This document shows positions 11,101 through 11,292 of a DNA stretch of 48,571 nt, piece by piece (the first letter of the stretch is position 1; each line of letters begins with the position of its first letter). The notes beneath the pieces are model-generated. The model was not told the DNA's origin. It searched no databases and saw only the letters and a program-made list of their open reading frames with translations. A program made the translations under genes and the position numbers. The DNA comes from Peptoniphilus timonensis JC401 (lineage in GTDB: Bacteria > Bacillota > Clostridia > Tissierellales > Peptoniphilaceae): NCBI RefSeq assembly GCF_000312025.1, contig NZ_HE978598.1:9135-57705 (forward strand), in the 5' to 3' direction.

Positions 11101-11151
11101 ATCAAAAAGAGCAAGAAAATAAAGCTATTAAATAGCCAAATTTTCTTGCTC
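11101..11151 (-). promoter_or_regulatory. Terminator-like hairpin in the leader of the SLH gene (possible attenuator)
   Basis: Twelve-base perfect arms (11109-11120 and 11140-11151) enclose a further GCTATT/AATAGC stem and are followed, on the minus strand, by TTTTTGATTTTTT. It lies between the promoter at 11263-11292 and the GTG start, so it would stop transcription before the gene unless overcome. A second, weaker hairpin (AGGCGAAA/TTTCGTCT, 11173-11194) sits just upstream. Confidence 0.65.
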
Positions 11152-11211
11152 ATAAAAATTTATATTCAAATAAGACGAAATTATCCTTTCGCCTGAATAT
11201 ACACTTGTAGT

Positions 11212-11260
11212 TGTCTGTCTGTCTGTCTGTCTGTCTGTCTGTCTGTCTGTCTGTCTGTCT
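11212..11260. repeat. Tetranucleotide microsatellite (TGTC)12, GACA on the coding strand
   Basis: Twelve full copies of TGTC plus one base run without interruption over 49 bases. On the minus strand the GACA repeats begin at the predicted transcription start of the SLH protein gene and make up the 5' end of its leader. Such tracts change copy number by replication slippage. Confidence 0.98.
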
Positions 11261-11262
11261 TG

Positions 11263-11292
11263 ATTTTAAAAATTCTATTCATAACTTGTCAA
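11263..11292 (-). promoter_or_regulatory. Sigma-A promoter of the SLH protein gene
   Basis: On the minus strand a perfect TTGACA (11287-11292), an 18-base spacer and TAAAAT (11263-11268). The start site would fall at about 11256, i.e. at the edge of the GACA repeat, leaving a leader of about 180 bases before the GTG. Confidence 0.75.

Follow-up and report, generated by a model that had tools for sequence, protein, structure and literature searches.

We analysed a window of 48,571 nucleotides from Peptoniphilus timonensis JC401 (contig NZ_HE978598.1), the assembly of which (1.76 Mb, 87% complete) is called G000 below. On the minus strand a ZIP-transporter gene (PF02535) and its terminator are followed by a leader carrying a GACA repeat and then by a gene encoding an SLH-domain protein. 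The features of this region, in window coordinates, are:

11315 to 11343, minus strand: candidate promoter P1, TTGAAA-17-TATATT with a TG extension, proposed from consensus matching and shuffles
11293 to 11302, minus strand: Shine-Dalgarno-like AAAAAAGGAC of the leader ORF; a purine-rich stretch also precedes the leader starts of relatives
11287 to 11292, minus strand: TTGACA box, taken as the -35 in an earlier reading; its spacing to the array is nearly constant among the cellular arrays found and among many on viral contigs
11181 to 11282, minus strand: leader ORF in the n = 12 frame, 33 codons (MNRIFKIKTDRQT...), from ATG 11282 to TAA 11183-11181
11212 to 11259, minus strand: (GACA)12 within the leader ORF, encoding (DRQT)n, from the sequence and TRF
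11156 to 11206, minus strand: small upstream hairpin, from folding
11128 to 11152, minus strand: where the remaining two frames stop, at TGA 11152-11150 and TAA 11130-11128
11092 to 11151, minus strand: predicted premature terminator, stem-loop 11151-11109 with a T-rich run from 11108
11083 to 11089, minus strand: ribosome-binding site of the SLH gene, from the sequence
10766 to 11077, minus strand: SLH gene piece 1, 103 aa from GTG 11077, with a signal-peptide-like start at the N-terminus
8496 to 10769, minus strand: SLH gene piece 2, 757 aa, with three C-terminal SLH stretches (PF00395, E = 6.7e-28)
10783 to 10789, minus strand: A7 run where the frame of the SLH gene changes, from the sequence

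The repeat runs from 11259 to 11212 on the minus strand and is perfect over all 12 units (TRF: 11212-11260, 12.2 copies, 100% match). No other (GACA)5-or-longer tract occurs in the 1.76 Mb assembly, the eight overlapping pattern matches all falling at this one place. The count of 12 agrees with an earlier reading made from the sequence alone, which had also reported a small hairpin, a terminator hairpin with a T-run and a strong ribosome site before the SLH gene, and all of these are present. The 43-nt terminator hairpin at 11151-11109 (dG -21.4) is followed by TTTTTGATTTTTT, and AAAGGAGG lies ahead of GTG 11077. None of 30 shuffles of this stretch gave a hairpin and T-run of equal strength. 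The stem has an internal loop; a simple consensus terminator scan did not list this terminator, which folding does detect. An Rfam scan listed 18 weak matches, the best at 24 bits against a cut-off of 54, and none reached the gathering score.

The whole GACA tract is enclosed by an ORF that starts at ATG 11282 and has its own ribosome site. Because the tract lies inside this ORF, the copy number modulo 3 sets where a ribosome would stop relative to the terminator. The n = 12 frame stops at TAA 11183-11181, 29 nt upstream of the terminator, whilst the stop of one alternative frame (TGA 11152-11150) overlaps the first stem bases and that of the other (TAA 11130-11128) lies inside the hairpin. 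The orthologous leader of G002, with n = 16, has a frame that crosses the entire hairpin and stops in the T-run. The locus thus shows the layout of an SSR leader-peptide attenuator: a tract whose unit is not a multiple of 3 in a short RBS-bearing ORF, an intrinsic terminator and frame-dependent stops.

These features make it probable that the leader is a phase-variable attenuator, in which GACA copy number would set the leader frame and hence terminator override before the surface gene. Transcription would begin upstream of the short leader ORF, and ribosomes would translate the ORF through (GACA)n. Slipped-strand mispairing would gain or lose 4-bp units, so that n mod 3 would fix the reading frame after the tract. 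In the n = 12 frame the ribosome would stop 29 nt before the terminator, the hairpin would form and the surface gene would be silent. A stop at the first stem bases, for n = 2 mod 3, or within the hairpin, for n = 1 mod 3, would keep the hairpin open, and RNA polymerase would read into the surface gene. Ribosome-polymerase coupling is loose in some Bacillota, which would weaken such ribosome-driven antitermination.

The states can be predicted by analogy with pil1 and pil3 of S. gallolyticus, where (GCAGA)n in a leader ORF switches expression (Danne et al. 2014, PMC3894217). There, stops at least 28 nt before the terminator give mostly low expression, and expression is high when the stop falls just ahead of the hairpin, within it or past it (PMC3894217). 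By this rule the window is predicted to be OFF with 12 copies and ON with 13 or 14.

The earlier proposal, in which a tetranucleotide tract prone to slippage is linked to a premature terminator ahead of a surface-protein gene, was right in kind, with the leader-ORF frame as the probable mechanism. It had assigned the effect of copy number to leader length or RNA folding. Of 200 shuffles, 199 fold less well than the RNA that spans the array and the sequence up to the gene start (z -3.2), and the GACA tract itself is unpaired in the predicted fold. Leader length or folding is thus not the obvious variable, and we rejected it as the switched one in favour of reading frame.

The same arrangement was found in other genomes. 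TTGACA followed by (GACA)4 matched in 12 of 130 genomes of the family, and the reversed pattern had no match among the same 130. When (GACA)6 was sought with no TTGACA requirement, it was present in 11 of the order's 249 genomes, all of them members of one family, which we take to be Peptoniphilaceae, and in 2 of 372 genomes of the class outside the order. In G088, G015, G142 and G478 the array falls within a type I specificity gene (PF01420). In total we collected 13 GACA leaders, from ten genomes (G000, G002, G006, G027, G026, G134, G137, G016, G488 and G034, the last with just 4 GACA copies) and from three contigs of a viral collection (L283, L299 and L315, near-identical to each other and 3 of the 80 viral-collection stretches listed). 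Related species carry different numbers of copies in their orthologous leaders, with 12 versus 16 in one comparison between species and 22 versus 4 in another.

In every one of the 13 leaders a start codon, ATG except for one GTG, lies 13-25 nt ahead of the array, is open into it and follows a purine-rich stretch. Where several starts were possible the ATG was chosen, or the GTG in G006; L283, L299 and L315 have an alternative TTG start in a different frame. A hairpin with T-run (dG -15 to -28) lies between array and gene in all 13, the T-run having been required by the search. Among 11 distinct leaders, ten have a hairpin whose strength was reached by 0 of 30 shuffles, and that of G006 was reached by 1 of 30. 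The hairpin is kept in G002 and in G009, a related locus described below; comparison of G000, G002 and G009 revealed no two-sided compensatory change in it.

Frame-dependent stops recur as well. Exactly one frame stops at least 28 nt before the stem in 12 of 13 leaders, the furthest stop in the exception, G137, being at 21 nt. All 13 have at least one frame ending at, in or beyond the stem, and six have two such frames; the third frame of the other seven ends 7-18 nt short of the stem, a range that the published pil1/pil3 rule leaves unclassed. The present frame is early in five leaders (G000, G006, G027, G026, L283), at or over the stem in five (G002, G134, G034, G016, G488) and in between in three (G137, L299, L315). 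When the array-to-stem stretches of 11 leaders were shuffled, the joint probability of the pattern was 6e-4, and 1.8e-5 (about 2e-5) for exactly one early frame; both values are too small, since the 21-nt threshold was loosened after G137 had been seen and G000/G002 and G134/G034 are related pairs. The probabilities are supporting evidence for a frame-dependent pattern and are not decisive.

Ribosomes crossing the hairpin could also act on translation. If the long-frame leader ORF ended at or over the surface start codon, switching would control re-initiation and not termination. The long frame does overlap the main start codon in G134 (+149 versus ATG at +145), G137 (+126 versus +122) and G016 (+164 versus +150). 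However, the frames of G000, G002, G026 and G027 all stop well before the gene, at the latest in the hairpin or T-run, and the T-run hairpins are stronger than those in shuffles. Translational coupling is thus quite unlikely to be the switch itself, though it may act additionally in some members. Control of the terminator by leader frame is the reading we keep.

We also examined where transcription of the leader may start. The sequence-only reading had proposed a strong promoter with a start at the repeat edge. Its TTGACA-18-TAAAAT exists, with 11 of 12 hexamer matches in a consensus scan, but its role as the promoter was not confirmed, and a second site upstream is better kept. TTGACA-18-TAAAAT would put the transcription start downstream of the leader ATG. 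The upstream site, TTGAAA-17-TGaTATATT at 11343-11315, has a -10 ending 32 nt before the leader start codon. Its hexamers and spacing also occur in G002 and G009, where the -10 of the earlier proposal reads TAGGAT and TAGAAT. The score of the upstream site was reached by 1% of 200 shuffles in G000 and in G002, and likewise for a similar site in G027, the three candidates lying at matching distances. For the other 9 of 12 scored leaders the best upstream promoter score was common in shuffles (0.06-0.87). The 3-kb region has no excess of promoter-like sites (14, compared with 12.7 in shuffles), so a match to the promoter consensus proves little by itself. On sequence grounds the upstream site is likely to be the promoter here. 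Both candidate promoters are upstream of the tract, an arrangement that does not fit phase variation by promoter spacing.

With a promoter at TTGACA-18-TAAAAT, RNA would start at the array and n would tune the length of the leader, its folding or the stability of the mRNA, as (AGAT)n may do at uspA2. Besides the hexamer matches, this is favoured by the mRNA of uspA2, which varies with an upstream tetranucleotide tract (PMC7302503, as summarised there). TTGACA is also equally far from the array in all 12 cellular cases; the search pattern required TTGACA, yet the 12 include all 11 arrays found with no such requirement. Furthermore, -10-like boxes at 16-18 nt exceed shuffles in the cellular arrays, scoring 4.33 against 2.96 (sd 0.28), a statistic that ignores kinship. 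By contrast, the fold leaves the array unpaired, and the -10 matches poorly in G002 (TAGGAT, 4/6) and in G134/G034 (3/6). The model also takes no account of the start codon, the open frame and the stops set by frame in all 13 leaders. We consider it unlikely that the switch works in this way. As main start the array-edge promoter was demoted, given that a second site lies upstream and that the -10 of G002 and G134/G034 is poor, and a start there is doubtful. What lends it some plausibility is that TTGACA and a -10-like box are conserved beyond the ordinary needs of a 5' leader. Promoter P1 and a switch by leader frame are our preferred combination.

The association of TTGACA with repeats extends beyond leaders. 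In the viral collection (loci L236-L365 and L383-L430), (GACA)6 arrays were found without asking for TTGACA, giving 80 listed of at least 120 stretches, and arrays less than 60 nt from an end were dropped. TTGACA lay 28-36 nt upstream (in fact 30-34) in 36 of 74 arrays, and 13 copies fell in the rest of the 200 nt. GCAGA arrays had it within the 28-36 nt window in 14 of 54 cases, with 4 elsewhere in 200 nt, and CAAC control arrays in 2 of 75, with 10 elsewhere in 200 nt. Counted by protein clusters the values were 8/25 for GACA, 5/22 for GCAGA and 2/62 for CAAC. The clusters include PAPS-reductase-like, HsdS and reverse-transcriptase genes, in different reading frames. Within the PAPS-reductase-like family (22 of the 80 loci scorable), TTGACA was present in 12 of 14 members with an array and in 3 of 4 array-less members with LT codons. 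A -10-like box at 16-18 nt exceeded shuffles in the viral arrays too (3.28 against 2.70, sd 0.15, kinship ignored), but 16 of the 36 viral TTGACA arrays scored 3/6 or less. A shifted-window control gave 39 stretches, of which 34 were already in the main listing and the other five are possibly among nine further members of that set, so that this control contributes no clear number; an opposite-strand control gave 5 stretches. The idea that TTGACA is a remnant of repeat units was rejected, as GCAGA arrays carry it too.

It is conceivable, though at present a tentative and rather doubtful idea, that GACA and GCAGA tracts are tied to a sigma70-like TTGACA box some 32 nt before them, in many cases accompanied by a -10-like box and with a predicted start at the array, in leader ORFs and mid-gene alike. 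Initiation, or another factor that reads TTGACA, would then help to create or destabilise the tract, making it a licensed hypermutable repeat. The shared box raises the testable question of how repeat tracts arise and mutate.

The SLH gene itself is split in two frames in the window (ORF 11077-10766, then ORF 10769-8496), with the break near the A7 run at 10789-10783. Named matches to this gene came from P. senegalensis, P. raoultii and P. gorbachii. Elsewhere in the window, the gene at 22523-23770 is in three pieces and corresponds to a single 418-aa open frame in the same-species genome G061, the differences being of one base in homopolymers. Given these similar homopolymer breaks, and an assembly that is 87% complete, the SLH frame break may be a sequencing error; the leader argument does not depend on the break.

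If the break is real, the gene could be dead here and the repeat inert. The cassette is also absent from G061, where the ZIP gene is 100% identical (protein) and about 190 bp of other sequence replaces the SLH cassette and leader (window 8444-11370). The ZIP gene is present in 12 of 14 genomes of the genus; within the 420 nt after it the leader was found in three (G000, G002, G009) and not seen in the other nine. Set against this, the G002 ortholog is continuous (843 aa from its ATG) behind 16 GACA copies, similar breaks elsewhere point to possible sequencing error, and a long-dead tract should accumulate changes, whereas the tract of G000 is perfect over 12 units. A relic is thus very unlikely, and a working frame switch remains our interpretation.

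G009 retains the promoter, ribosome site, ATG and hairpin (L070:3150-3345). With its repeat decayed, the switch looks locked; the 34-codon ORF ends at the stem, and two genes lie downstream instead of one. Cargo varies amongst the leaders: SLH proteins in G000, G002, G006 and the second gene of G027, Cna_B proteins in G026, G134, G034 and G137, an arylsulfotransferase in G016 and a VWA-domain protein in G488. G009, G027 and L283 share a two-gene layout, in which a secreted-type protein of 251-253 aa with no Pfam match precedes a larger surface protein. The G027 version of the smaller protein is 33-36% identical to those of G009 and L283, and the 252-aa partner matched nothing among plasmid and phage records. 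The second gene encodes an SLH protein in G027 and G009, and in L283 a protein that is presumably LPXTG-like, judged by its C-terminus. At L283:1745-7922 the GACA leader and its two-gene surface operon lie downstream of an ORF that we take to be recombinase-like, and the module is thus possibly mobile.

In the loci scanned, other surface genes rarely bear such repeats: 76 stretches held, besides three GACA tracts, one 9-bp x3 repeat. Seventy of these were other SLH loci of five genomes, among the matches listed; 9 of the 70 had less than 350 nt upstream covered, and the longest ORF was not always the SLH gene. The viral-contig arrays were considered as further leaders and mostly set aside, as most of the 80 listed are coding arrays (PAPS-reductase-like, HsdS and other genes). 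The viral collection also holds two GCAGA leaders of the same layout (L403 and L420), and the leader layout was absent from the TTGACA-preceded GCAGA arrays L407, L411 and L419.

Two side observations concern the coding arrays. L228, L229, L230 and L509 are HsdS (PF01420) genes with mid-gene GACA arrays, which would switch the downstream frame. By eye, and uncounted, L239, L274, L292, L298 and others have a run of at least 7 G within about 90 nt after the GACA array; array and G run are possibly two switch tracts in one gene.

The repeat-switched attenuator appears to be a portable module, found in several genera of one family and on other contigs before unrelated surface proteins. A genome sequence is enough to predict the ON or OFF state, so the system is easy to test. 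Searches of the literature found nothing joining Peptoniphilus, phase variation and S-layer, and in the sources retrieved, some of them as extracts, no repeat-switched attenuator is described beyond the S. gallolyticus pili. Those pili do contradict the sequence-only reading's statement that it knew of no described example (PMC3894217).

Several known systems share parts of this design. At Moraxella catarrhalis uspA2, too, a tetranucleotide tract, (AGAT)n, lies upstream of a surface-protein gene and the mRNA level varies with n (PMC7302503, citing Attia and Hansen 2006). The variation there is transcriptional and follows tract length, and the cited account describes no leader ORF or terminator, unlike the GACA leaders (PMC7302503). 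Attenuation coupled to translation is a second relative. At pyrBI, a ribosome on a leader ORF influences the terminator. The trp-type case is alike in that the ribosome on the leader ORF affects terminator formation (trp as outlined in PMC3894217). Both trp and pyrBI respond to metabolites, whereas the GACA switch would be a heritable change in repeat number.

The closest system is pil1/pil3. Both it and the GACA leaders have an SSR in a short RBS-bearing leader ORF, a terminator before a surface gene and stops set by frame. In pil1/pil3 there is an upstream promoter, and one frame is low and two are high; the GACA promoter is a candidate. The unit is GCAGA (5 bp) there and GACA (4 bp) here, and streptococcal pilus operons contrast with SLH, Cna_B, VWA and arylsulfotransferase genes as cargo. 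A further difference is that the third frames of 7 of 13 GACA leaders stop 7-18 nt short of the stem. The pil1/pil3 switch was tested by genetics, with chloramphenicol and with loss of the leader ATG or RBS and of the terminator, and a three-stop mutant gave expression slightly above expectation (PMC3894217), whilst the GACA leaders are known from sequence. On that footing, we read the GACA leaders as a pil1/pil3-type system in a new lineage.
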